Assembly (NCBI RefSeq): GCF_900111495.1
Contig: NZ_FOIU01000001.1
Span: forward strand, 1,364,001-1,428,000
Direction: 5' to 3'
DNA from: Chryseobacterium wanjuense
GTDB taxonomy: Bacteria > Bacteroidota > Bacteroidia > Flavobacteriales > Weeksellaceae
Length of the DNA stretch: 64,000 bases
In this document: piece after piece, positions 11,458 to 58,875 of the stretch
Numbering within the stretch: the first letter of the stretch is position 1
Layout of the letters: each line of letters opens with the position of its first letter
Position numbers and translations under genes: made by a program
The notes under the pieces: model-generated
Database searches by the model: none
Told to the model about the DNA's origin: nothing
What the model saw: only the letters and a program-made list of their open reading frames with translations

Positions 11458-11473
11458 TATGATCCTGGTCATA
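11458..11473. promoter_or_regulatory. Crp/Fnr-type palindromic site (copy 1 of 4)
   Basis: TATGATCCTGGTCATA fits TATGAYYNNRRTCATR. On the plus strand a -7-like box TAGCTTTA (11495-11502) begins 21 bp downstream, the same spacing as at the other three copies. This orientation would drive the small gene at 11646 with a leader of about 140 bases. On the minus strand the site lies upstream of the P-type ATPase, but no good -7 box is at that distance there. Confidence 0.6.
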
Positions 11474-11645
11474 TGAGTATCAGTATTTTAGGCATAGCTT
11501 TAATGCTTCAAAGACTTATCTTAAAATATTGGAACCGAAAAATGTATATTGTGGAAAACTTAATGTTAAAATTGTGTAATAAAAAATATATTGGTAACTA
11601 AATTGCATAAGTCTTATTAATTAAACTATTAAAAATTAAAAAGCT

Positions 11646-11864
11646 ATGAATATTTCTTACTATGATTTTAAAAATCTACCCAATCAGGAGCAATGCAATG
11701 TTGTCATGAATGAAGGACGTGTGATGAACGAAACAATTTCCGATACTTTAAAATATGTATTGTATGAAGTTTCTTATTTTACCGTTGAAATCATTTATAA
11801 CATGAAAAACAATAAAATCGAGGGAATGAATGTGTTTCAGAATAAATCTGCTTATTCTAATTGA
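11646..11864 (+). CDS. Small hypothetical protein, 72 residues
   Basis: I do not recognise this protein. It has 72 residues, two cysteine-free halves apart from QEQCNVVMNEG, and many Asn and Tyr (MNISYYDFKNLPNQEQ). No signal peptide or membrane helix is visible, so it is probably cytoplasmic. The A-rich start context (TTAAAAAGCT before ATG) and the upstream Crp/Fnr-like site with a -7 box support a real gene. Its stop codon ends one base before the stop of the convergent exonuclease III gene. It may be a small stress-induced protein under Crp/Fnr control. Confidence 0.65.
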   Translation: MNISYYDFKNLPNQEQCNVVMNEGRVMNETISDTLKYVLYEVSYFTVEIIYNMKNNKIEGMNVFQNKSAYSN

Positions 11865-12638
11865 TTATTTAAGCAGTTCTATCCAGACAGGAGCATGATC
11901 ACTACTCTTTTCCCAACCTCGCACATGTTTATCCACGCCGCCCGATTTCAGACGGGAAGTGAGATATGGGCTTAATAAAATATGATCCAGCCTTATGCCT
12001 GCATTTCGGTCATAGGCTTTGTATAAGTAATCCCAGAAGGTATAGATAACTTCGTCCGGATATAAAGTTCGGAGAGAATCCAGCCAGCCTTTTTTCATGA
12101 GATCCTCATACGCTTTTCTTACTTCAATCCTGTACAACGCATCATTTTCCCAACGTTCGGGTTTATAGACATCCATCGCAGTCGGAATAATATTAAAATC
12201 ACCGATAATAATCGCCGGAAGCTCCATTTTTATCAGTTCATCAGTTCGTTTTTTTAATCTTTTGATCCAGCTTAATTTATAATCGAATTTCGGCCCCGGA
12301 TACGGATTTCCATTGGGAAGATAAAGGCAGCAAATCACCATCTGATCGATAATGGCTTCGATGTATCGGCTCTGGACATCTTCATCATCTCCGGGTAAAG
12401 TATTCTGAACTTCCACAATCTCATGATTTTTTGAAAGAATCGCAACTCCATTCCAGCTTTTTTGTCCCTTCCAGATAGCCTGATAACCGGCATCATTGAT
12501 TTCCTTTATTGGAAAACGTTCCTGCGGGGCTTTCAGTTCCTGAAGACAAACGATATCCGGCTCTGCTTCCTTTAGCCATTGAAGTAAAACCGGCAGCCGC
12601 CCATTCACTCCGTTTACATTATAAGTTGCTATTTTCAT
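11865..12638 (-). CDS. xthA: Exodeoxyribonuclease III
   Basis: A 257-residue exonuclease-endonuclease-phosphatase fold protein of the ExoIII/AP endonuclease family. Motifs include TYNVNGVNGR at the N-terminus (metal and phosphate binding), CLQELKAP with the catalytic Glu, GDFNIIPTAMDV, RLDHILLSP and the C-terminal SDHAPVWIEL with the catalytic Asp-His pair. The family cleaves DNA at abasic sites and removes 3' blocking groups after oxidative damage. Length matches E. coli XthA (268). It stands alone, transcribed toward the 72-residue small gene. Confidence 0.94.
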   Translation of the reverse strand: MKIATYNVNGVNGRLPVLLQWLKEAEPDIVCLQELKAPQERFPIKEINDAGYQAIWKGQKSWNGVAILSKNHEIVEVQNTLPGDDEDVQSRYIEAIIDQMVICCLYLPNGNPYPGPKFDYKLSWIKRLKKRTDELIKMELPAIIIGDFNIIPTAMDVYKPERWENDALYRIEVRKAYEDLMKKGWLDSLRTLYPDEVIYTFWDYLYKAYDRNAGIRLDHILLSPYLTSRLKSGGVDKHVRGWEKSSDHAPVWIELLK

Positions 12639-12787
12639 GACTATTCCTGTTTATTTTCAAAAGGCAATAATTATTCCATGTGATGAATAAAAGATGATGT
12701 GAAATTTTTACTATTAATTAAAACTTTGTGGCATAATTTATTCATTAACAAGATAAGAAAGATTTAGTTAAAATTTAAATTCACTTT

Positions 12788-13015
12788 ATGAACTATAACG
12801 AAGCCCAACAATATAAAAAAGAAGCATTGCAAAAAGCAGATGAATCTGTACTGCAGAATTTCCATATCATCATCACCCCCGCTATCACAGACGAAAGCGC
12901 AAAATATATTGAAGATTTCTTAAAAAATCCTGATAAGTTTAATGATGAAAGCTGCAAAAAATACAGCTCCGACGGAGAGTTTGAAGTGGTAAGTTTTAAA
13001 AAAGAAAATGAATAA
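12788..13015 (+). CDS. Small hypothetical protein, 75 residues
   Basis: I do not recognise this family. The product has 75 residues and is mostly helical and charged (MNYNEAQQYKKEALQKADES, then a conserved-looking HIIITPAITDESAKYIEDF). No signal peptide or membrane segment is seen. It reads like a soluble cytoplasmic protein with coding-like amino acid composition and an ATG after an AT-rich stretch. It lies between exonuclease III and the DUF892 stress protein and may belong to the same stress set. Confidence 0.7.
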   Translation: MNYNEAQQYKKEALQKADESVLQNFHIIITPAITDESAKYIEDFLKNPDKFNDESCKKYSSDGEFEVVSFKKENE

Positions 13016-13161
13016 AAAAGCCATCAAAAGAGTTGATGACTTTTAATGATATTGAATAGAATGATGAAACTTTAGATACCACATTTTTCTATTTATGTCT
13101 AAGATGGTCTTATAGTTGTAGATTATTCACCAATCAAAACAATCACTAAAATATATTCATT

Positions 13162-13746
13162 ATGGAAACGAAAACACCAACCAAAAATGCGACTGCAAAG
13201 AAACCTGCAGCGACAAAAACAGCATCCAAAGCAACGGCAAAGACTCCGGCTAAAAAGAATGCTGCCAAAGAATTGAAAGACCTGTTTGAAGATTCGCTGA
13301 AAGACATCTATTGGGCAGAAAAAGCCTTGGTAAAAGCTTTACCGACAATGATGAAAAACGCTACTGACGCCAAACTGAAAGCTGCCATTGAAAAACATAT
13401 CGCAGAAACAGAAACACACGTTCAGAGACTGGAGCAATGCTTCAGTGCATTGGGGAAAAAAGCGCAGGCAAAAAAATGCGATGCTATGCAGGGATTATTG
13501 GATGAAGGGAAAAGTATCATGCAGGAAACAGAACCGGGAGCTGTAAGAGATGTAGGAATTATCGCTGCGGCGCAGAAAGTAGAACATTACGAAATCGCTA
13601 CTTATGGGACATTGGCGGCATATGCAAAGGTTTTAAAAGAAGATGAATGTCTCAAAAACCTTCTCGCTACGCTAAATGAAGAGAAAAAATGCGATGAATC
13701 ATTAACAAAAGTTGCCGACACCGCGCTGAACACTCAGGCGATGTAA
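13162..13746 (+). CDS. DUF892 (YciE/YciF-like) ferritin-like protein with lysine/alanine-rich N-terminal tail
   Basis: The protein has 194 residues. Residues about 1-35 are a basic, low-complexity tail made of Lys, Ala, Thr and Pro (KKPAATKTASKATAKTPAKK), resembling histone H1 or the DNA-binding tails of some Dps proteins. From about residue 36 a DUF892 four-helix domain follows: KELKDLFEDSLKDIYWAEKA, then KHIAETETHVQRLEQCF with ExxxH-type metal ligands, then KVEHYEIATYGTLAAYAK. YciF-type proteins are di-iron ferritin-like stress proteins of unclear reaction. The tail would let this one bind nucleic acid; that is inference. A strong terminator follows 16 bp after the stop. Confidence 0.92.
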   Translation: METKTPTKNATAKKPAATKTASKATAKTPAKKNAAKELKDLFEDSLKDIYWAEKALVKALPTMMKNATDAKLKAAIEKHIAETETHVQRLEQCFSALGKKAQAKKCDAMQGLLDEGKSIMQETEPGAVRDVGIIAAAQKVEHYEIATYGTLAAYAKVLKEDECLKNLLATLNEEKKCDESLTKVADTALNTQAM

Positions 13747-13762
13747 ACAACGATTTGATACG

Positions 13763-13791
13763 AAAAAAGAGACCGATGAGGTCTCTTTTTT
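13763..13791. terminator. Bidirectional rho-independent terminator
   Basis: A perfect 12-bp stem (AAAAAAGAGACC / GGTCTCTTTTTT) with a GATGA loop. It has A-run and T-run on either side and lies between the convergent DUF892 gene and the esterase gene. Confidence 0.92.
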
Positions 13792-13808
13792 ATTTTATGA
13801 TGTCTAAA

Positions 13809-14858
13809 TTATTTAGAAAATAATGCTCTTTTTAAGGTTGATGCGGCATCCAGAACAGATTCTTTTACAGCAGGGATGTGAGCCAGCGGATTCAGCATTC
13901 CGTAGTCGTGGATGAATCCTTTGTATTCTGTAACGGTTGTCGGTACTCCCGCTTCATCCAGTTTTCTGCCGTAGGCTACACCTTCATCATGCAAAATATC
14001 ATTTTCTGCAACCTGAACCAAAGCCGGAGGTAAGTCTTTCAATTCTTCCAAAGACGCCTGTAAAGGGGATGCATATTTGTTTTTGCGTTCATTAAGGTCG
14101 GGTAAATAATTGTCCCACATCCATTTCATCAACGGTGTTGTAAGAAATCTTTCCTGAGCAAATTTTGTATAGGATTCTCTGCTGAAATCAGCATCTGTAA
14201 CCGGCCATAGAAGAATTTGCTGTGATATTTTCGGTCCGTTTTTATCTTTAGCGATCAAAGCGACTACAGCAGCCATATTTCCGCCAACGCTGTTTCCTAC
14301 TACTGCGAGTTTGCTTGCGTTCACTCCTATTTCTTTGCCGTTCTGGGCTACCCATTTTGTTGCGGCGTAAGCCTGATTGATCGCTACAGGAAATCTCGCT
14401 TCAGGTGATGGTGTATAATCAGGAAAAACTGCTACAGCACCACTGTTGACCACCAAATCTCTTACTAATCTTTTATGAGTAGGATAATCTCCTAGAACCC
14501 AGCCTCCACCGTGGAAAAACATGAATACCGGAAGTCCTGCTTTGGCACCTTTTGGTTTTACAATGTGGATTTTTATGGTTTGTCCGTCCTGGGTGATCGT
14601 TCTTTCTGATTCTTCAATATCTGAATAGTCAAAATTGACAGATTTTTGTGCTCCTACCAAAACTAATCTTGCATCTTTCGGAGATAAGGTTTCTAATGGT
14701 TTTCCGTCTCCGCTGTTTAAGACTTTTAAAAATGCTCTGATTTCTTTGGAAATGTTAGGGTCTTGGGATGCAGGATTTTGTTGAGCAAATGCATTTGAAT
14801 TTAAGCTAAAAAATGTCATTGCTGATAATGCGATACCTTTAATAAATGTTGTTCTCAT
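13809..14858 (-). CDS. Secreted alpha/beta hydrolase, HSL-type esterase
   Basis: The 349-residue product has a cleavable signal peptide (MRTTFIKGIALSAMTFFSL, ending ANAFAQ-like at NAFAQQ). It has the hormone-sensitive-lipase oxyanion motif HGGGWVLGD and the nucleophile elbow GNSVGGN, a slight variant of the usual GDSAGG. The acid (AENDILHDEG) and His (GFIHDYGML) complete the triad. It should hydrolyse short-chain esters in the periplasm. The frame is open to 14936, but a perfect -7 box (14901-14908) lies inside that extension, so the ATG at 14858 was chosen. It is a separate unit from the cupin and epoxide hydrolase genes upstream. Confidence 0.92.
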   Translation of the reverse strand: MRTTFIKGIALSAMTFFSLNSNAFAQQNPASQDPNISKEIRAFLKVLNSGDGKPLETLSPKDARLVLVGAQKSVNFDYSDIEESERTITQDGQTIKIHIVKPKGAKAGLPVFMFFHGGGWVLGDYPTHKRLVRDLVVNSGAVAVFPDYTPSPEARFPVAINQAYAATKWVAQNGKEIGVNASKLAVVGNSVGGNMAAVVALIAKDKNGPKISQQILLWPVTDADFSRESYTKFAQERFLTTPLMKWMWDNYLPDLNERKNKYASPLQASLEELKDLPPALVQVAENDILHDEGVAYGRKLDEAGVPTTVTEYKGFIHDYGMLNPLAHIPAVKESVLDAASTLKRALFSK

Positions 14859-14900
14859 AATAAATAGATTTTTAATTATTTTTTGTTGATTTCTATGAGA

Positions 14901-14908
14901 CAAAGGTA
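14901..14908 (-). promoter_or_regulatory. -7 box of the esterase promoter
   Basis: On the minus strand this reads TACCTTTG, an exact TAnnTTTG match, 43 bases upstream of the chosen start. The expected -33 TTTG is only weakly matched. Confidence 0.55.
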
Positions 14909-15029
14909 TGGCGTATTGCAATCCGATATAAAGCATAAAAGTGCTTTATTGTTGTACTTTTTTCCTTTTTTGGTTAAGTTTTTAATGAGTTTAAATAAAC
15001 TTTTTAAATAAATAATAATTATTGAATTT

Positions 15030-15254
15030 CTACTGCTGATTATTTTTCCTGAAAAGATACGCTACGAACTGCTGTACCTTAGGACCTATGAAAAAGATCA
15101 CAGGAATGATAATAATGTAAGCCATTGCCCATGATTTTAGCCATTTTTCAAAGAAATTTTCGATATATCCTACATTAATGCTGATTAACGTAAATGAAAT
15201 AATACCTGTCGTGATGAAGCCCATGATGAACGCTCCGGCTATTCTCTGTTTCAT
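15030..15254 (-). CDS. DUF2798 small membrane protein
   Basis: The 74-residue product is two hydrophobic helices (GAFIMGFITTGIISFTLISI and AMAYIIIIPVIFFIG) joined by a short loop, ending in a basic tail. This layout and the opening KQRIAGAFIMGFITTG fit the DUF2798 family of two-helix inner membrane proteins, whose function is unknown. It lies 27 bp after the cupin gene on the same strand and is probably co-transcribed with it. Confidence 0.8.
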   Translation of the reverse strand: MKQRIAGAFIMGFITTGIISFTLISINVGYIENFFEKWLKSWAMAYIIIIPVIFFIGPKVQQFVAYLFRKNNQQ

Positions 15255-15280
15255 AACTTTTTAATAATAAAATTTTAATG

Positions 15281-15691
15281 CTATTTCTTCATGACAAGCA
15301 GCTGCTTTCCTTTCTGTACAATATATGTTGCGAGTTCGCTGGCTTTGCTGTTGCCTATATTTTTAGCAGAATGATTTTTTCCTGCCGGAATAAAAAGGAC
15401 TTCTCCTCCTTTCAGAATGACAGGTTTTTCACCTTCGATCTGATATTCAAAAGTTCCTTCCAGCACATAGATTACCTCTTCACCCGGATGCGAATGCATT
15501 CCGAAGGAAGTGCCTGTTTCAAAATCAATTCTTGCCTGAATGGTTTCATATCCTGAAGCCTGTAAGTCATATCTCTGAAGATTTGTTCGTGTAATTCCCG
15601 TTTGTTGCGAGAAACTTTTTACAGGGATAAAATAGATAGCTATACAAAGAATGTAAATCGCTTTAATGATTAATTTGTTTAAAAATTTCAT
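15281..15691 (-). CDS. Exported cupin-domain protein
   Basis: The 136-residue protein has an N-terminal hydrophobic signal or anchor (IYILCIAIYFIPVKSFSQ). A single cupin_2 domain follows, with the metal motif HSHPGEEVIYVLEG and the second motif PAGKNHSAKN. Two or three His plus one Glu would bind a divalent metal. Such exported cupins are often dioxygenases or binding proteins, but the substrate is unknown. It follows the epoxide hydrolase after a terminator-like hairpin and precedes the DUF2798 gene. Confidence 0.87.
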   Translation of the reverse strand: MKFLNKLIIKAIYILCIAIYFIPVKSFSQQTGITRTNLQRYDLQASGYETIQARIDFETGTSFGMHSHPGEEVIYVLEGTFEYQIEGEKPVILKGGEVLFIPAGKNHSAKNIGNSKASELATYIVQKGKQLLVMKK

Positions 15692-15709
15692 TTCTTCTTT
15701 ATTAAGGTT

Positions 15710-15746
15710 AAAAAAAATAAGGGCAGCAGCAATATCCGTTGCCCTT
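15710..15746 (-). terminator. Terminator after the epoxide hydrolase gene
   Basis: On the minus strand AAGGGCA (from 15746) pairs with TGCCCTT, followed by an A then a run of eight T. It lies between the epoxide hydrolase stop and the cupin start, so the cupin probably has its own promoter or depends on read-through. Confidence 0.7.
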
Positions 15747-15755
15747 TTATTGGTA

Positions 15756-17042
15756 TTATCGTACTGATTTGAAAGCGGCTCTCAATTCTTCTGAGAAAAG
15801 CTGAGGGTGTTCCCAAGCTGCGAAGTGACCGCCTCTGTCCACTTCATGGAAATAAACCAGATTTTTATATGCTCGTTTTGCCCAGCTCTCCGGAGATGCA
15901 TATACATCTTTCGGGAAGGTTGTCACGGCAACCGGAATCGTGATTTTGTCAGACTGCATCATTCCTGCACTGATGATGCTGATATTTCTGTTTTCCCAAT
16001 AGATCTGAGCTGCGGAAGAAGCAGAATTTGTCAACCAGTATAATGAGATATCATCCAAAACCTGATCTCTTGTCGGCAACTGTTTCGGATCTTTTCCGAA
16101 AGACCATTCATCGAAGCCCGGGTGTAGGAAGATCCATCCTGCAAGTCCAACAGGAGAGTCTGAGATAGAATAGCTTACGCCCTGCGGTCTTCCTTCCATT
16201 GTTGTTTTGTAGATAAAGCCCCCTGTTTTGATGGCATTGTTTAATTGTTCAAAAGCGGCACGTTCTTTTTGCGAAAAGCTTTCCGGTACTGTATTTCCAC
16301 CTAGAGCCATTCCCGCTTCGTTGGGTAATGTCGCAGGAAGATTGCTGTGAATTGCCAATAATCCCTGAGGAGCCTGTAAAGCCATTGAGTGAACAATTCC
16401 CGCACCCCAGTCACCGCCTTGTGCTACATAATTTTTATAGCCCAGACGTTTCATTAAGACAATCCATGCTTTTGCAATACGGTCGTTGCCCCAACCTTCT
16501 ACCGCAGGTTTACCCGAAAACCCAAAACCGGGCAATGAAGGGATCACAATATCAAATGCATCTTCGGCTTTTCCTCCGTAGGCCGTAGGATTTGTTAATG
16601 GTTCTATCACTCCCATGAATTCGAATACAGATCCCGGCCAGCCATGACTTAGAATCAGTGGCATCGCGTTTTTATGTTTTGATTTTACGTGGATAAAGTG
16701 AATGTCTATTCCGTCTATTTTAGTTTTAAACTGAGGGTACGAATTTAATCTTGCTTCAGCTTTTTTCCAGTCGTAGCTTGTTCCCCAATATTGGGCGAGT
16801 TCCTGCATTTTGGCAAGTTTTGCCCCTTGCTTTTCATCATTTACCAATTCTTTGGAAGGCCATCTTGTCTGTAAAATGCGCTGGCGAAGGTCTTTCACTT
16901 CAGCATCTGAAATATTTACTTTAAATGGCCGGATGGTTTCATCATTTTTTAATTCTGTTTTATTTTGAGCTGAAGCAATGGCAAATTGTACCATTAATGC
17001 TCCTGTGAATAATAATCGGGAGAGATTGTTTATTGTTTTCAT
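15756..17042 (-). CDS. Exported epoxide hydrolase
   Basis: The 428-residue protein has a signal peptide (LLFTGALMVQFAIASAQ). It has the epoxide hydrolase N-terminal domain (FKVNISDAEVKDLRQRILQT) and the alpha/beta-hydrolase core. The oxyanion motif is HGWPGSVFEF and the nucleophile Asp sits in QGGDWGAG, a microsomal-type epoxide hydrolase elbow. The late His is in VDRGGHFAAWEHP. It would open epoxides to diols in the periplasm. It lies 33 bp after the nitrilase gene and is probably controlled by the same TetR operator. Confidence 0.93.
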   Translation of the reverse strand: MKTINNLSRLLFTGALMVQFAIASAQNKTELKNDETIRPFKVNISDAEVKDLRQRILQTRWPSKELVNDEKQGAKLAKMQELAQYWGTSYDWKKAEARLNSYPQFKTKIDGIDIHFIHVKSKHKNAMPLILSHGWPGSVFEFMGVIEPLTNPTAYGGKAEDAFDIVIPSLPGFGFSGKPAVEGWGNDRIAKAWIVLMKRLGYKNYVAQGGDWGAGIVHSMALQAPQGLLAIHSNLPATLPNEAGMALGGNTVPESFSQKERAAFEQLNNAIKTGGFIYKTTMEGRPQGVSYSISDSPVGLAGWIFLHPGFDEWSFGKDPKQLPTRDQVLDDISLYWLTNSASSAAQIYWENRNISIISAGMMQSDKITIPVAVTTFPKDVYASPESWAKRAYKNLVYFHEVDRGGHFAAWEHPQLFSEELRAAFKSVR

Positions 17043-17075
17043 TTTGTTTGTTTAAATAATTTTGATTTTTAAATA

Positions 17076-18059
17076 TTATTCTGAAATAATTTGTGCCGAT
17101 GCAGAAATCTGCCCGTCGATACTGATATCATGTACCTGAGAAGCCGGAGTGCGGTCGATCACAAGACTTACCAGTTCGGGACGGCTGTAGTGGCCTTTTG
17201 CATCCATAAGACGCTTGCGGGAATCTATTTTAGATAAATCGATATCGGCGATCACTTCTCCTTCTCCGGATTTGATAGGTTCTCCGATGATCTGACCTTC
17301 AGGATTAATAATCGCAGTGAAACATCCTCCTGAAATGGGACCGATTGGCCCTCCTGTATCCTGAGCGATCTGCTTCTGCTGTTCTTCATCCAGCCAGCCT
17401 GTAGCACAAACTACGAAACAGGCAGATTCCATGGCGTGCTGACGAACGTTGATTTCTGTTTGTTCACTATGCAAAGGGCCAAGGAATGATCCTGGATACA
17501 TCGCCGAATGAATCTGTTCACCATCTGCAATCATCGCATATCGGAATAATGGATTGTAGTGTTCCCAGCAAGCCAACTGCCCTATTCTTCCCACTGCGCT
17601 GTCTACGGCTCTGAGACCTGAAGCATCTCCTTGTCCCCAAACCATTCTTTCGTGGTAAGTTGGTGTTAGTTTTCTTCTGCGCTGGATCAATGTTCCATCT
17701 GAATCGAAAAGAAGCTGTGTATTATAGATGGTTCCGCCATCACGTTCGTTCACTCCGATGGAAACGACCATATTGGCTTCCTTAGCGGCTTTCCCGATCG
17801 CATCTGTATCCGCAGAAGGGACAACGATGGATTCTTCCAACAGTTTCAAGTGTTCCTGTGCCATCGCATAAGGCGCCTGAATAAAAGAGAAATAAGGATA
17901 ATAAGGAATAATGGTTTCCGGGAAAGTGGCGAATTCCACTCCTTTTTCTCCCAATTCAAGAATTTTATTAATTATTTTATCAATAGTTCCCTGTTTGCTG
18001 TATAATACAGGGCTGATCTGCACGGCGGCAACTTTTACGGTTTTGTTTGAGTTCTTCAT
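17076..18059 (-). CDS. Nitrilase-family carbon-nitrogen hydrolase
   Basis: The 327-residue protein has the Glu-Lys-Cys triad of the nitrilase superfamily: Glu in FATFPETIIPYYPYF, Lys in RRRKLTPTYHERMVWGQGD, Cys in GQLACWEHYNPL. The CWEHYNPL context is that of true nitrilases (nitrile to carboxylate plus ammonia) rather than amidases. No signal peptide is seen. The frame is open to 18143, but the TetR-type operator at 18093-18104 lies inside that extension, so the ATG at 18059 was chosen. Next in the operon is an epoxide hydrolase, which suggests a xenobiotic or plant-nitrile detoxification unit. Confidence 0.93.
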   Translation of the reverse strand: MKNSNKTVKVAAVQISPVLYSKQGTIDKIINKILELGEKGVEFATFPETIIPYYPYFSFIQAPYAMAQEHLKLLEESIVVPSADTDAIGKAAKEANMVVSIGVNERDGGTIYNTQLLFDSDGTLIQRRRKLTPTYHERMVWGQGDASGLRAVDSAVGRIGQLACWEHYNPLFRYAMIADGEQIHSAMYPGSFLGPLHSEQTEINVRQHAMESACFVVCATGWLDEEQQKQIAQDTGGPIGPISGGCFTAIINPEGQIIGEPIKSGEGEVIADIDLSKIDSRKRLMDAKGHYSRPELVSLVIDRTPASQVHDISIDGQISASAQIISE

Positions 18060-18104: not shown

Positions 18105-18123
18105 ATTTTTTAAGTAAAAAAAT

Positions 18124-27383: not shown

Positions 27384-28307
27384 CTATTTCTTAAACCAAG
27401 ACTGATTATCCTTATTGTCAGAGCGTTTTTTACCTTTCTCGATATTATAGGCAAAACCTACTCCCAACGTCTGTTTCAGCTGGGTTCTTCTAATCTGATT
27501 ATGATCGTAAAGAAGATCCAAAGTAATATTCGTAGAAATAAATTTATTGATTTTCATATTTAAAACTCCGCTGTACGAAAGTACCAGCCTTTCCGGATGG
27601 TCGAGATAATTTGAGAACACGGAACCTGTGTTGGTAAGCGTAATATTCTCCATAATTTTCAGTTTATAAATGGCCGTTCCCAAAAAACCGAACTGGAATA
27701 ATGAGGAATCTCCGTCGTTTTTTAAACCATATGTTCCGGCGTGCTGCAGGTCTTCATCCAAAACGAAAGTCCATCTTGCATTGGCAGGGCGCAAAGTCAC
27801 GGTCAGGTTATCATTCGGCCTGTAAGTAACTCCGGCTCCAATATTGAAATAGCCGGGAGCCATAAAATTGGAAATTTTTGCAGCTTCAGGGTTGTTTCCG
27901 TCTGCATAACCTGCTGCAAACTGTGTCTGCAAGCTTGCTCCGCCGGAAATATACCAGTGTTTTGCAAATTCCCTTCCGTAATTGGTAGAAAGGTTGATGA
28001 CATCCTGGGTTTTTCTGGTTCCTATGCCTTTTGTATTGTTTTGTCCGTAGCCGAGAATGATAATATTTTCCCAGAGATCTTTGCCTTTTTCGTAGGTAAG
28101 ATTGTAATTTACTCCGGCAAGCCATCCCACGTTGTTGGCTCCACCGCCTACCCAGTTTGAAAATGCGGACTGATTGAGCATTAAAGTATTCTGCCCCTGA
28201 ATACTCCAGGCTTTTGTAGTATCTACAGCCGGTGCTTCAGTTTTTATCTCTTGTGAAAAAGCAAAAATTCCCAACGACAGGGAAAGGGGTAACAAAGTTT
28301 TTTTCAT
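27384..28307 (-). CDS. DUF3078 protein, outer-membrane beta-barrel-like
   Basis: The 307-residue product has a signal peptide (KKTLLPLSLSLGIFAFS, cleaved before QEIKTE). The mature part matches DUF3078: WSIQGQNTLMLNQSAFSNWV followed by GGGANNVGWLAGVNYNLTYE. Many alternating hydrophobic strands with aromatic ends suggest an outer membrane barrel. No function is known for the family. The ATG at 28307 was taken because the signal peptide begins there; the frame extends to 28328. Confidence 0.9.
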   Translation of the reverse strand: MKKTLLPLSLSLGIFAFSQEIKTEAPAVDTTKAWSIQGQNTLMLNQSAFSNWVGGGANNVGWLAGVNYNLTYEKGKDLWENIIILGYGQNNTKGIGTRKTQDVINLSTNYGREFAKHWYISGGASLQTQFAAGYADGNNPEAAKISNFMAPGYFNIGAGVTYRPNDNLTVTLRPANARWTFVLDEDLQHAGTYGLKNDGDSSLFQFGFLGTAIYKLKIMENITLTNTGSVFSNYLDHPERLVLSYSGVLNMKINKFISTNITLDLLYDHNQIRRTQLKQTLGVGFAYNIEKGKKRSDNKDNQSWFKK

Positions 28308-28487
28308 AATAATAAATGTTTGGTGCAAAATTATAAATAAAGTTTTTGTTAAAAAATATTAAATAAACTTATATAAAATTTAAAATAATACTTTTTATTG
28401 ACAGAATAATAATTTTTAACCAAAATTTTACTTTGGATATATAAAATAATTTGGATTTTGAATTTGAATGAAAATTAACAATAAAGC

Positions 28488-28519
28488 AAAACCCCTCTAA
28501 AAAAGGGGTTTTTCGTTTT
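28488..28519 (+). terminator. Orphan terminator-like hairpin
   Basis: AAAACCCC (28488-28495) pairs with GGGGTTTT (28505-28512) and T-rich sequence follows. No coding gene lies upstream on the plus strand before NDH-2. Confidence 0.65.
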
Positions 28520-28584
28520 TTACAACGTAGAATATGGATTTTTGTGTTTACTGCCCAAATCTAATAAGTCTTGCATAGTTTTTT

Positions 28585-28600
28585 TATGACCTCGATCATA
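28585..28600. promoter_or_regulatory. Crp/Fnr-type palindromic site (copy 2 of 4)
   Basis: TATGACCTCGATCATA fits TATGAYYNNRRTCATR. It is followed after 20 bp by TAAATTTA (28621-28628), a -7-like box on the plus strand, giving a site centre near -41. It drives the small membrane peptide gene at 28703. Confidence 0.75.
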
Positions 28601-28702
28601 AAAATTATCTTAAAATTTCATAAATTTAAATAACTGATTATCAGATGGTATTAATTTACTCTTATGGAAAGAGTATGGTTTAAAATTTGTTGATTTTACA
28701 TT

Positions 28703-28864
28703 ATGAAAACGAAGAAAATATTATCTCCGATTTTGGGAGAACATATTGGAACGAAAGGAGTTTCCAAAGGAATCGAAAATGCTGCCAAATATGTTGCAGT
28801 CGGCTTTCTGGCCTTGTTTGCACTAGGACTTTTTACAACTTCACAAAAAATAAATGCAGGATAA
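28703..28864 (+). CDS. Small single-helix membrane peptide, 53 residues
   Basis: The frame from the ATG at 28703 gives 53 residues: a basic start (MKTKKILSPILGEHIGTKG), a helix region (VSKGIENAAKY) and one membrane segment (VAVGFLALFALGLF), ending TTSQKINAG. I do not recognise a family. Support for a real gene is contextual: a Crp/Fnr-type site and -7-like box upstream, an intact frame, and a strong terminator 10 bp after the stop. It is too short to appear in usual gene calls. A role in membrane stress adaptation is inference. Confidence 0.75.
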   Translation: MKTKKILSPILGEHIGTKGVSKGIENAAKYVAVGFLALFALGLFTTSQKINAG

Positions 28865-53090: not shown

Positions 53091-53249
53091 CTTGTACTGG
53101 GATTTTAAGTTTATTTTTTGCATTTCAGATACTGAATATGACTTGTGGTTCCGAATCTAATGTTCGAAGCTTCAACGATATATTTTTCCCTGATTGCTGC
53201 AGTTTCAAGACAGTTGAAATATCCGTAAAAGTTTGATGTTTAATTTCTT

Positions 53250-54002
53250 TTATCCATTGACGATCAGGCCTCCGTTGGGATGGAAAACTTGCCCTGTAAT
53301 CTGGGCAGCATCATCGCTTACCAAAAAAAGAAAGCTGGTGGCCACTTCTTCCGGTGAGGCGTTTCGTTCCAAAGGTGGTTTGTTTTCATCTTCTTCTTTT
53401 TCTCCAAAAGTTTTCTCGGTTAAAGGTGTTGCTACAGGTCCCGGAGCTACGGCGTTGATGCGGATTCCTTTGGGTTTTGCCTGTAAGGCCAATGATCTTG
53501 TGAAAGAAACAATGGCACCTTTTGTCGCGGAATAATCCAATAATTCCGGATGTCCCTGATAGGCTACTGCAGACGTTGTATTGACGATGGAACTTCCCTC
53601 TTTTAAATAAGGAAAAACAATTTTCGTTAACAAAATCATCCCTACAATATTGGAATCAAAGGTTTTTCTGATGTTCTTTTCCTCAAGATTTTCAATATTA
53701 TCGGAAGGAAACTGCATTCCGGCGTTGTTAATTAAAATATCAATTCCTCCGAATTCGGAAGCTGTTTGTTTGGCAGTTTCTTCGCAGAATTCATAATCAT
53801 TAATATCACCCTTGAAAATAATGCATTTTTTTCCGAGATTTTCAATTTCAGATTTAGTTTCTTCGGCATCATCGGTGTTGGAGTGATATATAATGGCAAT
53901 ATTAGCTCCATGACGTGCAAAAAGTAAAGCTACGGCCTTACCTATTCCACTGTCTGCTCCGGTAATGAGAACGGATTTGTTTTCTAATTTTAATTTTCCC
54001 AT
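53250..54002 (-). CDS. SDR oxidoreductase (general stress YdaD/YhdF-like)
   Basis: The 250-residue protein has the cofactor motif TGADSGIGKAVALLFARHGA, DILINNAGMQ, NTTSAVAYQGHP and YSATKGAIVSFTRSLA, followed by PGPVATPLTEKTFG. It matches the stress-induced short-chain dehydrogenases of the YdaD/glucose-1-dehydrogenase-like group. The YSATKG variant of YxxxK carries the catalytic Tyr and Lys. It lies upstream of the DUF6766 gene on the same strand, with 159 bp between, and close to catalase and CinA genes. Confidence 0.92.
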   Translation of the reverse strand: MGKLKLENKSVLITGADSGIGKAVALLFARHGANIAIIYHSNTDDAEETKSEIENLGKKCIIFKGDINDYEFCEETAKQTASEFGGIDILINNAGMQFPSDNIENLEEKNIRKTFDSNIVGMILLTKIVFPYLKEGSSIVNTTSAVAYQGHPELLDYSATKGAIVSFTRSLALQAKPKGIRINAVAPGPVATPLTEKTFGEKEEDENKPPLERNASPEEVATSFLFLVSDDAAQITGQVFHPNGGLIVNG

Positions 54003-54057
54003 AATTAAAACTACTTTTTATAACTTAATATATTGTTTTCTGAGTATCTGCTAAGTT

Positions 54058-54558
54058 TTATTTTAAAATTAATAACTGGTTAATTTCGCTTTTGAAGCAC
54101 CCCAGAATGAATTCTGTATAATACAATTGAGCATTCAGAGCTTGGGTTTTTGGGTGTAATTCCAATTTTTTGGTCATAATAATTTCCCCTTTGTAGGCAA
54201 AAGAGAAATACGCGAAAATCTTGTAAGAAGAATTCCTGATGGGTGTGCAATAGCCTGTTGTGGCAATCGACCAGTCGGATTCGAAGAGCTGGGCTACATT
54301 TAAAGCCATGGTTTCCACGATATTTTCTGAAACGCAGTCGCATTCTTCTGCTTCCGCTTTATTTACATTTAATAATCTGACTTTTTCGGGTAACGTATAG
54401 GCCGTCATACCTCCTTTATAAAACAAAGAAGCATTGGGCATTTGTGAAAAAGCAAGCTGCAAACAGCCTGAAGTTACACTTTCTACTACTGAAATCGTTT
54501 CGCCTGTTGTTAATAATGACTGGCTGATGTATTCTAGAAGGTTTTTTTGAAATTCCAT
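54058..54558 (-). CDS. CinA C-terminal domain protein (PncC-like)
   Basis: The 166-residue protein has the PncC/CinA domain opening VESVTSGCLQLAFSQMPNAS, FYKGGMTAYTLPEKVRLLNV and SIATTGYCTP. The family hydrolyses nicotinamide mononucleotide to nicotinate mononucleotide, but the usual TGG in the SxTGGL motif is SGC here, so activity is uncertain. The ATG at 54558 was chosen; the longer frame reaches back into the catalase gene. It lies 47 bp after catalase and is probably co-transcribed with it. Confidence 0.82.
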   Translation of the reverse strand: MEFQKNLLEYISQSLLTTGETISVVESVTSGCLQLAFSQMPNASLFYKGGMTAYTLPEKVRLLNVNKAEAEECDCVSENIVETMALNVAQLFESDWSIATTGYCTPIRNSSYKIFAYFSFAYKGEIIMTKKLELHPKTQALNAQLYYTEFILGCFKSEINQLLILK

Positions 54559-54604
54559 AATTAAAAAATTTAGTGTGGTGTGAGGGGTTATTTTAAGTTT
54601 TAGT

Positions 54605-56746
54605 TTAATTCTGAGCATTTCTTTCGAGTTCCAATTCCCAGACTCTGTGTTTGGCTATTGCTTCAATAAATTTCTCAGGACTTTTTTTGTTTTCCCACGT
54701 AATGATGGCGGGATCTTCATGTTTCTTTAATCCGACATTACTGCTCATGTAGAGAGCTTCTGTTCCGTCGCCGAAATAGATGGCTTTACAATGTTTATAA
54801 GCTTCATTAATAAAACGCAATACAAGAGGTTTGTTTTCCGGAGTCAGCAATTCTTTGGTAGAATCTTCGCCTGTTCCGATGAATAAAGCATCAAAACAAA
54901 CACTTGCCGTACTGCTCAAAGAATGTTTCGGAGTTAAAGATGATCCGTCGCTTGTCTTTACCGGAGCTAAACTTGGTGCGATGATTTCCACAACAGCGCC
55001 TTCTGCTTCCAGTTTTAATTTTAAATCATTTACAGCTTCTGCATCTACTCCATTACCCATAATAAAACCGATTTTTCTTCCCAGGATGGTATCTTTAACG
55101 GTATTCTGCATGCTCAAAGCTTTTGAGATTTTTGTATTGGGCTCTCTTTCCTCGCTTTGTAAGTCAGCAGGATTGGCATCTGCGGGAATGCTTTGATTAG
55201 GAAATTCCAATTCCTTTACCGTAACACCGATTTTTTCTGCCACTCTCCATGCTAAAGATTTATCAATGAATGCCAATTGCCCTACCACTCTTTCTCTTAT
55301 AGCAGGAATAGTCACTTTTGACAATTCGAATATCAAGGCATTTTGAAGATGTATTTTTTCCGGTGTCGACTGGCTGTTGTAGAATAATTTTGCCTGAGAA
55401 TAGTGATCTACGAAACTTCTGCTTCTTTCTCTCACTTTTGCGCCTGAAACTCTGGCTTCCTGGGATGCAAAACCACCCTCTGACATCATCGCCTGGAAAG
55501 GACATCCGCCGCCGATGGAGTTTGGCTCGTAGCTTACTTTTCCTTTGGGGATCTGTTGTCTCATGTATCCGTCGCGCTGGTTGTTGTGAACCGTGTTTAC
55601 GGATCTGTTGATCGGAATTTCATGGAAATTTGGCCCGCCCAGTCTTATCAGCTGAGTATCTGTATAGGAAAATAGTCTTCCCTGCAGCAGCGGATCGTTG
55701 GTGAAATCGATTCCGGGAACGATATGTCCGGGATGGAAAGCCACCTGCTCTGTTTCTGCAAAAAAGTTTTCAGGATTTTTATTTAAAGTTAATGTTCCTA
55801 CAAGCTGTACCGGAACTTCTTCTTCAGGGACGATTTTTGTAGGATCGAGAAGATCAAAATCATATTTGTCTTCATCTTCTTCAGGGATCAGCTGTACACC
55901 GAAATCCCATTCAGGGAATATTCCATTTTCGATGGATTCCCAAAGATCTCTTTTGTGAAAATCAGGATCTACCCCCGAAATTCTCTGCGCTTCATCCCAA
56001 GCTACGGAATGGACGCCTAGTTTTGGTTTAAAATGAAACTTTACAAAATGTGCTTTTCCTTCATCATTAATAAATTTAAAAGAGTGAACTCCAAATCCTT
56101 CCATTCTGCTGAAACTTCTGGGAATAGCCCTATCGCTCATCAGCCACATGATCATGTGCATACTTTCAGGCATCAGTGAAATGAAATCCCAAAAAGTATC
56201 GTGAGCAGAGGCAGCTTGTGGAATTTCGTTGTGTGGTTCAGGCTTTACGGCATGTACAAGATCCGGGAACTTCATGGCATCCTGAATAAAAAATACGGGC
56301 ATATTGTTTCCTACAAGGTCATAATTTCCTTCATCGGTGTAAAATTTTATTGCAAATCCTCTTACATCTCTCGCAAGATCGGTACTTCCCCTGTTTCCTG
56401 CAACGGTTGAAAACCTTACAAAAACAGGTGTTTCTTTTCCTACTTCCGTTAAGAATTTTGCTTTTGTATATTTGGCCAGGCTTTTATTTAGTTTAAAAAC
56501 ACCATGTGCTCCGGAACCTCTTGCGTGTACTACCCTTTCAGGAATTCTTTCATGGTCGAAATGGGTGATTTTTTCTCTTAAAATAAAGTCTTCCAGTAAG
56601 GTCGGTCCTCTGTCTCCGGCTTTTAAGGAATCCTGGTTGTTATTAATCTTAAGACCTTGATTGGTAGTAAGCTTTTCCTGATCGTTGGAAGTGCTGTGCG
56701 ATTCAAGCTGATCCAGCTTTTTGTTGGTTTTCTTAGGGGCTTTCAT
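54605..56746 (-). CDS. katE: Large-subunit catalase (HPII/KatE type, clade II)
   Basis: The 713-residue protein has the catalase core with the catalytic His in ARGSGAHGVFKL, the Asn region GNNMPVFFIQDAMKFPDLVH and the haem-ligand Tyr in GRLFSYTDTQLIRLG. A C-terminal flavodoxin-like domain (from about residue 560, GRKIGFIMGNGVDAEAVNDL) places it in clade II with E. coli KatE. It decomposes hydrogen peroxide in the cytoplasm. A Crp/Fnr-type site and an exact -7 box lie 250 and 217 bp upstream, giving a long leader of about 210 bases. Confidence 0.96.
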   Translation of the reverse strand: MKAPKKTNKKLDQLESHSTSNDQEKLTTNQGLKINNNQDSLKAGDRGPTLLEDFILREKITHFDHERIPERVVHARGSGAHGVFKLNKSLAKYTKAKFLTEVGKETPVFVRFSTVAGNRGSTDLARDVRGFAIKFYTDEGNYDLVGNNMPVFFIQDAMKFPDLVHAVKPEPHNEIPQAASAHDTFWDFISLMPESMHMIMWLMSDRAIPRSFSRMEGFGVHSFKFINDEGKAHFVKFHFKPKLGVHSVAWDEAQRISGVDPDFHKRDLWESIENGIFPEWDFGVQLIPEEDEDKYDFDLLDPTKIVPEEEVPVQLVGTLTLNKNPENFFAETEQVAFHPGHIVPGIDFTNDPLLQGRLFSYTDTQLIRLGGPNFHEIPINRSVNTVHNNQRDGYMRQQIPKGKVSYEPNSIGGGCPFQAMMSEGGFASQEARVSGAKVRERSRSFVDHYSQAKLFYNSQSTPEKIHLQNALIFELSKVTIPAIRERVVGQLAFIDKSLAWRVAEKIGVTVKELEFPNQSIPADANPADLQSEEREPNTKISKALSMQNTVKDTILGRKIGFIMGNGVDAEAVNDLKLKLEAEGAVVEIIAPSLAPVKTSDGSSLTPKHSLSSTASVCFDALFIGTGEDSTKELLTPENKPLVLRFINEAYKHCKAIYFGDGTEALYMSSNVGLKKHEDPAIITWENKKSPEKFIEAIAKHRVWELELERNAQN

Positions 56747-56962
56747 AGTTCTAATATTTTAGTGGTTGGGTTATTTAAATGGTTCAAATAAAAAATTATG
56801 CTGATAAGTAAATTAATTAATATTTAGTGATAGTATTTCCAGCTGTGACTAGTATTAGACAGCAATAAATTGATATTAAAACTTGAATTTTTTTTTAAAG
56901 CTAAAAAGCTTATTGTGTTTCCTCGGTCTGAGGTTTATGGGAACATGGATAATTTGTCACCT

Positions 56963-56970
56963 CAAATATA
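56963..56970 (-). promoter_or_regulatory. -7 box of the catalase transcript
   Basis: TATATTTG on the minus strand is an exact match, beginning 22 bp downstream of the Crp/Fnr-type site at 56993-57008. It leaves a leader of about 210 bases to the catalase ATG, with no obvious frame in it. Confidence 0.6.
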
Positions 56971-56992
56971 TGCCTTAAAGCGTCTACTTTCT

Positions 56993-57008
56993 TATGACCC
57001 AAGTCATG
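56993..57008. promoter_or_regulatory. Crp/Fnr-type palindromic site (copy 3 of 4)
   Basis: TATGACCCAAGTCATG fits TATGAYYNNRRTCATR. It lies just after the first Crp/Fnr gene and upstream of catalase, 22 bp before an exact -7 box on the minus strand. Confidence 0.7.
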
Positions 57009-57018
57009 TTGATTAATA

Positions 57019-57633
57019 TTAATATAAAATTTTCCGGTTTTCAATCTTAAGATTACCTTCTTTTTCCATTTTTTTTAAGGCTCTGATTACAGTTTCCACT
57101 CGTAAGCCTGTCAAATTCGCAATCTGTTGTCTTGTAAGCTCCACCTGAAAGCATTGCCCGCAATCGCCATCGTGATAACTTTTAAGGTAATCCAGCAATC
57201 CTTTCAACCTTAAAGCAGGATTTTGAGAAGACATACTTTGCAGCATAATTGCCTTGAAATAAAGTTTTTGCGAAAGACATGCATTCATTTCCAGTGAAAC
57301 ATGCGGATGTTTTTCCAGCATGTCCATAAAACTGCTTTTGGGAAGCCTGATGATTTCGCATGTGCTAAGACATACCGCGTTCATCACATAAAATTTTTCT
57401 AAAAAAAGCATGGAATCTCCAAAACTCTGGTGTTCTCCCAAAATATTATGAATAAATTCTTTGCCTTCTTCATTGTAATTGTTGAGCTTTAGCTTCCCCT
57501 TTAGAATTTGATAATAATAAACCACATGATCTCCTTCTCTATAGATCAACTCGCCAGGTTGATATGTTTTTACTTCTGCACCGAAAGAATACAAAAGTTC
57601 AGGCTCAATATTCATACAGCTTATTGTTTTCAT
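57019..57633 (-). CDS. Crp/Fnr-family regulator 1
   Basis: The 204-residue protein has a cNMP-binding-like beta-roll (about 15-120; PGELIYREGDHVVYYYQILK, then EFIHNILGEHQSFGDSML) and a winged helix ending LTRQQIANLTGLRVETVIRA. The recognition helix keeps the Glu and Arg (VETVIR) that in FNR and CRP read TGA/TCA half-sites. The FNR-type iron-sulfur cysteine cluster is not obvious, although several Cys are present (CMNIEP, CLSTCE, DCGQC). It is one of two adjacent paralogues and is a candidate activator of the catalase just downstream. Confidence 0.92.
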   Translation of the reverse strand: MKTISCMNIEPELLYSFGAEVKTYQPGELIYREGDHVVYYYQILKGKLKLNNYNEEGKEFIHNILGEHQSFGDSMLFLEKFYVMNAVCLSTCEIIRLPKSSFMDMLEKHPHVSLEMNACLSQKLYFKAIMLQSMSSQNPALRLKGLLDYLKSYHDGDCGQCFQVELTRQQIANLTGLRVETVIRALKKMEKEGNLKIENRKILY

Positions 57634-57679
57634 GCTTAGTAAAAGTTTTAATAAAATTGGAAAATTTGATATTGATTTT

Positions 57680-58276
57680 TTAATATAAAATTTTACGATC
57701 TTTAATTTTTAATATTTTATTTCTTTCCATTACTTTAATGGTTCTTATTGCAGTTTCTACGCAAAGGCCTGTAAGACCTGCCATTTGCTGCCTTGTGAGT
57801 GGAACCAGAAAAGAATATGGCGCTTGTTCTTTTTGAAAGCTTTTAAGGTAATCCATTAATGTTTTTAATTTTGAAACAGGATTGTGAGTATTCAAATTCT
57901 GTTTCATTACCAAGGCGTAGTAAATTCTTTGTGAAAGAAATGTGTTGATATCGCGGGATATTTCCGGATATAGTTTCAGAAGATCCAAAAAAATATGCCT
58001 TGGAAGCCTGAGAATTTCACAATTGGTGATAGCAATTGCGTTCATTGGATAAGGTTTGTTTATAAAAAGCATCGATTCGCCGATACTCTGTCCGGCTTCT
58101 AATAAAGTCTGGATGCTTTCCTTCCCATCTTTGTTGTAGTTGTTCAGTTTTACGTCTCCGGTAATGATCTGATAATAATAATTAGCAGGATCTCCTTCAC
58201 TGAAAATGATCTCAGTGGGTTTATAGGTTTTTATACTTGCTCCTACTGAATGCAAAATTTCTTCTTTGATAACCAT
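57680..58276 (-). CDS. Crp/Fnr-family regulator 2
   Basis: The 198-residue paralogue lies 46 bp upstream of regulator 1 on the same strand and has the same layout: PTEIIFSEGDPANYYYQIIT in the sensor roll and LTRQQMAGLTGLCVETAIRT in the recognition helix, again with Glu and Arg at the TGA-reading positions. Both end in RKILY. It lacks the FNR-like cysteine set, so it does not look like a classical oxygen sensor. Duplicate regulators may sense different signals yet bind the same site. Confidence 0.92.
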   Translation of the reverse strand: MVIKEEILHSVGASIKTYKPTEIIFSEGDPANYYYQIITGDVKLNNYNKDGKESIQTLLEAGQSIGESMLFINKPYPMNAIAITNCEILRLPRHIFLDLLKLYPEISRDINTFLSQRIYYALVMKQNLNTHNPVSKLKTLMDYLKSFQKEQAPYSFLVPLTRQQMAGLTGLCVETAIRTIKVMERNKILKIKDRKILY

Positions 58277-58599
58277 AAATAGTTGTTTTAATGTTAGTAA
58301 TGTTTAGCATCTTATTAGAAAAAATTGGGCACTACGTTTTATTATATACAAATATTGAACCTTGTTGATTTCTTAAAATGTTAAATTATGTTAATTCTAT
58401 TATTGATTTTTATCTTTTGTCCGTTATTTTTTTGATTTTCAATATAAATTATTAAGAAAGATTATTTTTATTAATTTATATTTACCTCTGAAATAAAAAT
58501 AAGATTTACCAATTAAAAAATCTGAAAAATCTGGTAACGGAAATGAAAATGAAACCCGCTTTTTTCTAAACGGGTTTTGTAAATCTATGACGTGTAAAT
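58277..58599. other. AT-rich gap upstream of Crp/Fnr regulator 2
   Basis: This 323-bp gap holds the promoter of regulator 2 (a near -7 box AATATTTG near 58347 on the minus strand) and the terminator of the small lipoprotein gene (58552-58577). I see no gene. Confidence 0.45.
58552..58577 (-). terminator. Terminator of the small lipoprotein gene
   Basis: AAACCCG (58552-58558) pairs with CGGGTTT (58571-58577); it lies 23 bp after the lipoprotein stop on the minus strand. Confidence 0.75.
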
Positions 58600-58803
58600 T
58601 TATTTTGTAACTTTAGTGGTATCCGCAGTATCTGTACGGTTTGTTGCTGTACTGTCTACTGAGATTGTATCGGCCGGAACCGGTGCTATTGTACTGTCTG
58701 CAACTATCGTTGTGTCAGATGCCGAAGTGGTGGAGGTATCTGCACTTTTCTTACAACTCAGGACTATAAATCCGAGTATCGTGAGTGTTAATACATATTT
58801 CAT
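58600..58803 (-). CDS. Small lipoprotein, Ser/Thr/Asp-rich, under Crp/Fnr-type control
   Basis: The 67-residue protein has a lipoprotein signal ending in IVLSC, so the mature protein is about 50 residues starting CKKSADTSTTSASDTT. The tail is almost all Thr, Ser, Asp, Ala and Val and is probably unstructured. No family is recognised. A Crp/Fnr-type site (58860-58875) and an exact -7 box TACATTTG (58830-58837) precede it with class II spacing, and a terminator follows, so it is a monocistronic stress-type gene. Confidence 0.85.
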   Translation of the reverse strand: MKYVLTLTILGFIVLSCKKSADTSTTSASDTTIVADSTIAPVPADTISVDSTATNRTDTADTTKVTK

Positions 58804-58829
58804 AACTTTATATTTTATTGGTGTTATTT

Positions 58830-58837
58830 CAAATGTA
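58830..58837 (-). promoter_or_regulatory. -7 box of the small lipoprotein gene
   Basis: TACATTTG on the minus strand is an exact match, beginning 22 bp downstream of the Crp/Fnr-type site. The leader would be about 20 bases. Confidence 0.75.
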
Positions 58838-58859
58838 TGGAAACATTTAGTTAAAAATT

Positions 58860-58875
58860 TATGATCTCGATCATA
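58860..58875. promoter_or_regulatory. Crp/Fnr-type palindromic site (copy 4 of 4)
   Basis: TATGATCTCGATCATA has perfect arms around TC. It is 22 bp from an exact -7 box, so its centre falls near -42, as in class II Crp/Fnr activation. Confidence 0.8.

Follow-up and report, generated by a model that had tools for sequence, protein, structure and literature searches.

We analysed a 64,000-nucleotide stretch of the Chryseobacterium wanjuense genome (contig NZ_FOIU01000001.1, positions 1,364,001 to 1,428,000; hereafter the window) that carries four copies of the palindrome TATGAYYNNRRTCATR and adjacent genes for two Crp/Fnr-type regulators, RegA and RegB. Our explanation, to which we give a probability of roughly 80%, is that the palindromes are class II activator sites for regulators of this type and drive a stress-like set of genes together with predicted small RNAs. 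The palindromes would be operators for dimeric activators of the RegA/RegB kind, with recognition helix VETxIR reading the half-site TATGAY, and would lie at -41.5 or -42.5 of promoters read by the housekeeping sigma factor, in which a TAnnTTTG box is present but a separate -33 element is not. In Chryseobacterium the driven set would comprise genes for the catalase KatE or for KGG proteins and for a small lipoprotein, together with predicted short RNAs that end at an intrinsic terminator, one of them on the minus strand at site 28585. In other members of the family and order, this type of site and regulator would serve nitric oxide (NO), nitrous oxide (N2O) and cbb3-oxidase genes, probably the older role.

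A pattern search recovered the four palindromes of the original prediction in place (Table 1), with no other exact match in the window. It counted 7 strand-matches, compared with a mean of 0.05 and a largest value of 2 after shuffling, which is far above chance. The whole genome (4.67 Mb) has 7 palindrome sites, 4 of them inside the window, and a reversed-pattern control gave none. The probability of at least 4 of the 7 falling inside the window is 1.2e-6, a value computed post hoc with the cluster already seen. The original prediction also expected the motif and its spacing to hold genome-wide, and this stood in part: a box follows at 20-22 bp at 5/7 sites, namely the four in the window and C1:146922, while C1:152492 has its box at 19 bp and C2:388452 has none (labels in G, C and L are our own for genomes, contigs and loci). 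Looser searches were set aside. Allowing 2 mismatches gave 29 matches when 12.6 were expected, so many arise by chance. The shorter word ATGAYYNNRRTCAT has 11 sites in the genome, among which C1:707107, C1:1515310 and C1:2640758 fall within coding frames and have no box that fits, and neither C2:694023 nor C2:388452 has a box at 18-25 bp. Across the genus the motif is present in 59 of 60 genomes, with 0-12 forward matches per genome compared with 0-2 for the reversed control.

Two side observations concern these sites. The site at G000:C1:146922-146935 (L278), with TAACTTTG at 21 bp, lies upstream of a GTG-started frame that by eye resembles a family 2 glycosyltransferase. Sites also form islands in some genomes, with 8 in 49 kb (G152:C5:86129-135217) and 6 in 18 kb (G136:C1:693923-712122), and several regulator paralogues lie inside them.

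The spacing between palindrome and promoter box is the strongest single result. The spacings originally given for the window, 21, 20, 22 and 22 bp, are all correct, and we extended the measurement to 148 chosen sites: the 7 of this genome and a selection from 13 genus, 8 family and 10 order genomes. TAnnTTTG starts 21 bp after the palindrome 52 times and 22 bp after it 38 times; at each of the remaining offsets between 0 and 72 it was found at most 3 times. A TAnnTTT(A/G) box occurs at 18-25 bp on one side of 112 of the 148 sites. Among 110 box-bearing sites, 108 are intergenic, although coding sequence makes up 81% of the total. The aligned sites have the consensus TATGAY-N4-RTCATA. In 114 aligned promoters, the sole conservation between palindrome and box is a preference for A directly after the palindrome, and no -33 element was found beyond the right half of the palindrome itself.

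Class II activators in E. coli are centred near -41.5. According to Guerin and colleagues, the sigma-A box of flavobacteria spans -12 to -5 (PMC9723704). Combined with the 21/22 bp spacing, this puts the site centre at -41.5 or -42.5, so that with starts predicted in this way the sites would occupy the class II position, as originally proposed from the four window sites. This position and the lack of a separate -33 element suggest that the activator replaces the upstream promoter element.

RegA and RegB belong to the Crp/Fnr superfamily, as each passes the Pfam cut-offs for the cNMP-binding-like N-terminal domain and the Crp-type helix-turn-helix (HTH). The VETxIR helices originally read in both proteins are present. 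Among 156 homologues from the scanned loci (phmmer E<=1e-12), 155 have VETxIR or IETVIR and the exception has VETVIK; this total counts RegA and RegB twice, because L298 holds both, and was obtained with a looser helix pattern after a strict one missed 51/154. Arg82-Ser83 is the phosphate-binding pair of cAMP-dependent CRP; in RegA, YVMNAV aligns to the CRP segment ERSAWV. RegA has one N-terminal cysteine (Cys6) and RegB has none there, so neither carries the FNR-type N-terminal cluster. In an alignment of 113 RegA- and RegB-like sequences, 66 have Cys6. The best solved-structure match to RegA by sequence is DNR (3dkw, E 1.4e-13). Under the specificity rule for helix positions 180/181, as given in the available text of PMC1274295, a helix without Arg at 180 corresponds to a site without the G of TGTGA, and Glu is retained at 181.

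We investigated how often RegA homologues, the sole family compared, co-occur with the motif TATGAYYNNRRTCATA in 196 genomes of the order, 97 of which match RegA at some level. A close homologue (E<=1e-24) occurs in 46 genomes, and 42 of these carry the motif, with 139 sites compared with 15 in the control. Where the homologue is weak only, 17 of 51 genomes have it and there is no enrichment (21 sites, 17 in the control). Outside the genus, co-occurrence of regulator and site is significant (Fisher P = 2.8e-6). The two are also adjacent. In 79 named loci found by RegA similarity (71 from Chryseobacterium, 8 from other genera), 73 have a site with at most one mismatch, plus a box, no more than 600 bp past the regulator gene; the box stands at 21 bp (59 loci) or 22 bp (14). 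These loci include Flavobacterium, Aquimarina and Salinimicrobium. Their number is not independent evidence, because the loci were found by RegA similarity. The automated scan found no site in the other 6, although L081 among them does have one. Co-occurrence and adjacency support the original assignment of the palindromes to the Crp/Fnr type, and from them, together with the sites and their spacing, we infer binding, activation and a signal to which the regulators would respond.

The original prediction named catalase and a lipoprotein as targets, and the conserved layout of site and box in the named loci makes both well-supported candidates. A second site with a box lies upstream of the regulators in 49 of the 79 loci; in 40 it is followed by a lipobox open reading frame (ORF) of 46-98 aa, with a predicted leader of 15-25 nt in 37 of the 40. 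At the site behind regA, a KGG protein starting MNTRN takes katE's place in 25 of 73 loci. Among 108 mechanically chosen first ORFs after a site, the lipoprotein is the largest cluster (19), followed by regulators (11), KGG-motif proteins (10), a 100-aa family (7) and KatE (4). KatE of the window scores 1034.9 bits against the NCBIfam catalase HPII model, under the curated cut-off of 1102. Other downstream families, each named from a single representative, are KGG, DUF892, DUF5670, DUF6766 and DUF2383 in Pfam. The KGG protein (L200 3462 and relatives; Pfam run on L200 only) is acidic and Gly/Ser-rich, with an MNTRN start and two KGG motifs. Catalase, KGG/GsiB-like and DUF892/YciF-like genes are, we assume, typical members of sigma-S and sigma-B regulons, and by this analogy the Chryseobacterium target set resembles a general-stress regulon.

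Outside Chryseobacterium the neighbours of the same site and regulator type are different. In the family and order they include an NO-inducible flavohemoprotein (L149), an iron-sulphur repair protein (L291), a cbb3 oxidase subunit (L281, a fragment under the curated cut-off), nitrous-oxide reductase operons and globin-like genes named by eye only. At the NosZ operons a fitting box follows the palindrome in L282 (NosZ by eye), and none is found at 18-25 bp in L288-L291. A membrane-like protein of 92-96 aa follows regulator and site in L151-L155, L157 and L285 (Flavobacterium and others) and precedes a globin-like gene in L153, L157 and L285; the L285 copy has no match in NCBIfam. In C. wanjuense itself, the paralogue RegC (VETVIR; G000:C3:19273-19842; L299 1495-2094) adjoins a frame resembling a cbb3-type oxidase gene by eye, and between the two lies the one-mismatch palindrome TGTGATTTCAATCATA, followed after 22 bp by TAGTTTTA.

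These neighbours raise the alternative that the sites are owned mainly by NO/O2-type paralogues, RegC and RegD, and form a micro-aerobic or NO regulon, while RegA and RegB act elsewhere or compete. The arrangement at RegC, the flavohemoprotein, globin-like, NosZ-operon, iron-sulphur repair (RIC) and CcoN genes that sites precede or adjoin, and the NO sensor DNR as nearest solved structure to RegA all speak for it. However, in the named loci the site follows a RegA homologue in 73/79 cases (Chryseobacterium supplying 71 of the 79), and the Chryseobacterium targets are catalase, KGG, DUF and lipoprotein genes, not respiratory ones. We regard this alternative as unlikely, although it is the strongest of those considered.

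The site at 28585 was originally assigned to a 53-aa membrane peptide, and here comparison with relatives led to a different output. Homologues of the peptide occur in 17 of 173 genus genomes, and the palindrome is kept with at most one mismatch in 10 of these loci, the window included. A box on the peptide side exists in the window only (1/10), and the link to the peptide was rejected. Nine of the 10 loci carry a box on the opposite side, 21 or 22 bp from the palindrome and directed away from the peptide; in the window this is TAGATTTG on the minus strand at 21 bp, a better box that had been missed. About 45 nt past the conserved box comes an intrinsic terminator. A terminator scan of a 601-base stretch gave 8 terminator-like hits compared with a shuffle mean of 0.2, and the predicted RNA, 28551-28482 on the minus strand, folds better than its shuffles (z -3.16). 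When RNA bodies were compared pairwise with that of L325, those of L318, L321, L323, L324, L329 and L332 exceeded all 100 shuffles. The aligned bodies share a CCATAT...TTTTAAAA stretch, and an RNA model from nine loci still gives weaker matches in L326, L328 and L330, which lack the palindrome. We infer from these computed features that site 28585 drives a terminated RNA of about 70 nt.

It is also conceivable that the minus-strand hairpin is a mere terminator or attenuator in the leader of a DUF3078 gene, with no independent RNA. A minus-strand gene does lie at 27384-28328, about 160 bp past the hairpin, and comparable hairpins stand upstream of genes in L189, L228 and L247. In the syntenic loci L205 and L325, however, the next gene past the terminator is on the opposite strand, yet promoter, body and terminator are kept. 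We consider the attenuator reading improbable and retain the small RNA as the predicted output of this site.

The same short-RNA layout recurs across the genus. Counting the genus and this genome together, a terminator starts 20-60 nt after the box at 20 of 65 box-bearing site-sides, compared with 20 of 409 intergenic boxes of genus loci taken as control (P = 6e-9). In other genera of the family the layout occurs at 1/39 and elsewhere at 0/13. A covariance search of 173 genomes with RNA model R1, from which the 30 best-match loci were taken, gave 23 readable site-sides, 21 of them with a terminator, and 9 loci without a readable side. New loci made up 16 of the 30; the 12 among them that could be read came from 12 different genomes and had a terminator without exception. 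This support is only partly independent, because the model was built partly on terminators. The automatic structure of R1 pairs the operator and has only 4 bp near the terminator, so its scores reflect mainly promoter and body sequence. R1 matches at E<=0.1 occur in 93/173 genomes, which is not a count of RNAs, because protein-gene promoters are among them, such as that at the lipoprotein site G036:C10:41891. By eye the RNA bodies fall into several unrelated families. Pairing with start codons was assessed as word enrichment: TTTTCATC occurs in 5 of 28 cases compared with a shuffle mean of 0.08, in a test made after the words had been noticed. When the window and five loci were compared with Rfam at gathering thresholds, a tRNA in L392 was the sole match. 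In L208 and L219, palindromes stand in pairs about 300 bp apart, each with a short terminated-RNA layout.

That the palindromes are operators of a repressor from another family, with the box distance reflecting steric block of the promoter, seems very improbable: repressors can also use a palindrome at -41.5, and in L286, L296 and L297 a site lies about 15 bp or less from a regulator's start codon, but a repressor would tolerate many positions, and the sharp spacing on one face, the lack of a -33 element and the co-occurrence with RegA fit activation better.

Several observations weigh against activation by RegA/RegB-type regulators as we propose it. No box lies at 18-25 bp at 36 of the 148 sites, and the genomic site C2:388452 is among the boxless; orthologous sites are not independent, and the sampled loci were chosen, not random. 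The genome encodes four paralogues (RegA, RegB, RegC and RegD) with the same helix type, so the owner of the sites could be any of them. Regulator and site are sometimes found apart: the site is missing from 4 of the 46 genomes that encode a close homologue (G222, G063, G171 and G237), it is present in 18 of 99 order genomes without any RegA match (77 less 59), and in the genus, where 4 of 60 genomes lack a close homologue, these four show 1, 0, 1 and 4 forward matches, the last being G054. The label "general stress" reflects gene content and analogy with sigma-S/sigma-B regulons. For the RNAs, the palindrome is absent, at up to one mismatch, from 7 of the 17 peptide loci, and in the pairwise test the bodies of the window and L322 were not above shuffles. 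Of the 20 terminator hits in the genus, that in L209 overlaps a lipoprotein ORF, and those in L189, L208, L211, L228 and L247 precede a gene and could be leaders.

The remaining site, at 11458, is real as sequence and probably lineage-specific. It had been assigned to a 72-aa protein, and we rejected this as a conserved link: among the 30 best loci of that gene, palindrome and box occur upstream only in the window's own, and 3 more have a palindrome without a box. Elements resembling TTGGCAAAGAAATTGTGTA at -24/-12 lie shortly upstream of the start codon in the ten stretches examined (the window and nine others from the L334-L363 set), a layout that we take to be that of sigma-54 promoters. Such promoters are documented for Flavobacterium psychrophilum in the available part of PMC9723704.

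Table 1. Coordinates of sites, promoter boxes, genes and predicted RNA in the window
Feature	Position	Strand	Basis
Site 1, palindrome; probably lineage-specific	11458..11473	+	Pattern search; 30 homologue loci
Box TAGCTTTA, 21 bp after site 1	11495..11502	+	Sequence
Sigma-54-like -24/-12 element TTGGTAACTAAATTGCA, upstream of 72-aa gene	11591..11607	+	Comparison with sigma-54 consensus
72-aa protein	11646..11864	+	Homologues in 83/173 genus genomes
Predicted small RNA, about 70 nt, from predicted start 28551 to T-tail	28482..28551	-	Conservation; fold z = -3.16
Intrinsic terminator hairpin AAAACCCC...GGGGTTTT of predicted RNA; terminator-like on both strands	28488..28512	-	Terminator scan
Predicted small-RNA promoter box TAGATTTG, 21 bp after site 2	28556..28563	-	Sequence; relatives
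Site 2, palindrome; conserved output toward minus strand	28585..28600	-	Pattern search; 10 loci, window included
Box TAAATTTA, 20 bp after site 2, toward 53-aa peptide; own genome only	28621..28628	+	Comparison with relatives
53-aa membrane peptide, probably no direct target	28703..28864	+	Comparison with relatives
SDR-family oxidoreductase downstream of cinA; co-transcription assumed	53250..54002	-	Pfam adh_short_C2 8e-60
CinA/PncC-type protein downstream of katE; co-transcription assumed	54058..54618	-	Pfam CinA 1.6e-23
katE, large-subunit catalase (HPII type), 713 aa	54605..56746	-	Pfam Catalase 3.5e-185
katE promoter box TATATTTG, 22 bp after site 3; predicted start 56958	56963..56970	-	Start by analogy with PMC9723704 (available part)
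Site 3, palindrome CATGACTTGGGTCATA (minus reading), between regA and katE	56993..57008	-	Pattern search; regulator adjacency
RegA, Crp/Fnr-type regulator, 204 aa, helix VETVIR	57019..57633	-	Pfam cNMP_binding 3e-19, HTH_Crp_2 4e-10
RegB, Crp/Fnr-type paralogue, 198 aa, helix VETAIR, 51% identical to RegA	57680..58276	-	Pfam domains; sequence
Predicted lipoprotein, 67 aa, signal peptide ending LSC (by eye)	58600..58803	-	Sequence
Box TACATTTG, 22 bp after site 4; predicted start 58825	58830..58837	-	Sequence
Site 4, palindrome TATGATCGAGATCATA (minus reading), upstream of lipoprotein gene	58860..58875	-	Pattern search

The sigma factors of F. psychrophilum are sigma-A, one sigma-54 and seven extracytoplasmic function (ECF) factors only, as listed in the available text of PMC9723704. 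Given this set, the control of stationary-phase and stress genes in Bacteroidota is a standing question. A single rule, TATGAYYNNRRTCATA followed after 21-22 bp by TAnnTTTG, names candidate regulators, promoters and a predicted small-RNA set, and so outlines a testable stress circuit. It suggests that an NO/oxygen-type regulator family has been re-used for catalase and protective proteins with its DNA word kept; the predicted short RNAs among the downstream partners of the palindrome were unexpected. A bolder version can be put forward only tentatively, as something we would sooner doubt than expect. If Chryseobacterium and its kin lack RpoS- and SigB-type factors as F. psychrophilum does, their general-stress response might be run by a duplicated DNR-like activator captured from an NO/oxygen circuit. 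This activator might also switch on the multi-family RNAs of about 60-75 nt, whose U-rich 5' parts (recurrent TTTTCATC, CCATAT) could pair with the start codons of mRNAs that begin AUGAAAA.

The proposed promoters share with class II CRP/FNR promoters of E. coli the centre at -41.5 over the upstream promoter element and the TGA/TCA half-sites. They differ in the promoter, which is of the Bacteroidota TAnnTTTG type, and in the half-site, which is TATGAY and not TTGAT or TGTGA; RegA and RegB also lack the cAMP-binding Arg-Ser pair and the N-terminal cysteine cluster. The recognition helix keeps E and R as in CRP/FNR (positions 180/181/185, in the available text of PMC1274295). DNR/NnrR is close through 3dkw, RegA's best solved-structure match by sequence, and through the NO/N2O genes that adjoin the family and order relatives, and the DNR box TTGATnnnnATCAA, as given in the same text, is similar to the palindrome described here. 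In contrast to DNR, the outer bases here are TA and not TT, and the Chryseobacterium targets are catalase, KGG, lipoprotein and predicted small RNAs. HcpR and HcpR2 of Bacteroides are likewise Crp/Fnr-type regulators of Bacteroidota tied to NO stress in the accessible parts of PMC1274295 and PMC13370916. HcpR2 has Pro at 181 (Pro, Ser or Gln marking the type) and the motif GTAACnnnnGTTAC, whereas RegA and RegB have Glu at 181 and TATGAY-N4-RTCATA sites.

Among small RNAs, FnrS of E. coli is also made from an FNR-controlled promoter (PMC8139620, available part). Here the RNAs are predicted from sequence, have no Rfam match in the stretches searched and show several unrelated bodies within one genus. 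The F. psychrophilum small RNAs (Rfp18 and others), from the same order, are likewise short and independent as described in the accessible part of PMC9723704, a likeness drawn by description only; "FNR" is absent from the main text of that study. In Bacteroides thetaiotaomicron, the SnoA RNA runs antisense to the hcp promoter, and deleting hcpR leaves the RNA level unchanged, according to the available text of PMC13370916. A meta-regulon study puts forward the hypothesis that CRP/FNR homologues of flavobacteria act in carbon sensing by way of MalR-like sites (PMC8510549), and the accessible part of the account of Riemerella CrpR1 (PMC13277301) contains no binding motif. Searches of an open-access library, some of which would miss the spelling "Crp/Fnr", turned up no account of this motif, of the regulon or of the RNA set. 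The kind of system is thus a known one, and the variant, with its motif, promoter type, target set and RNA families, appears to be new.

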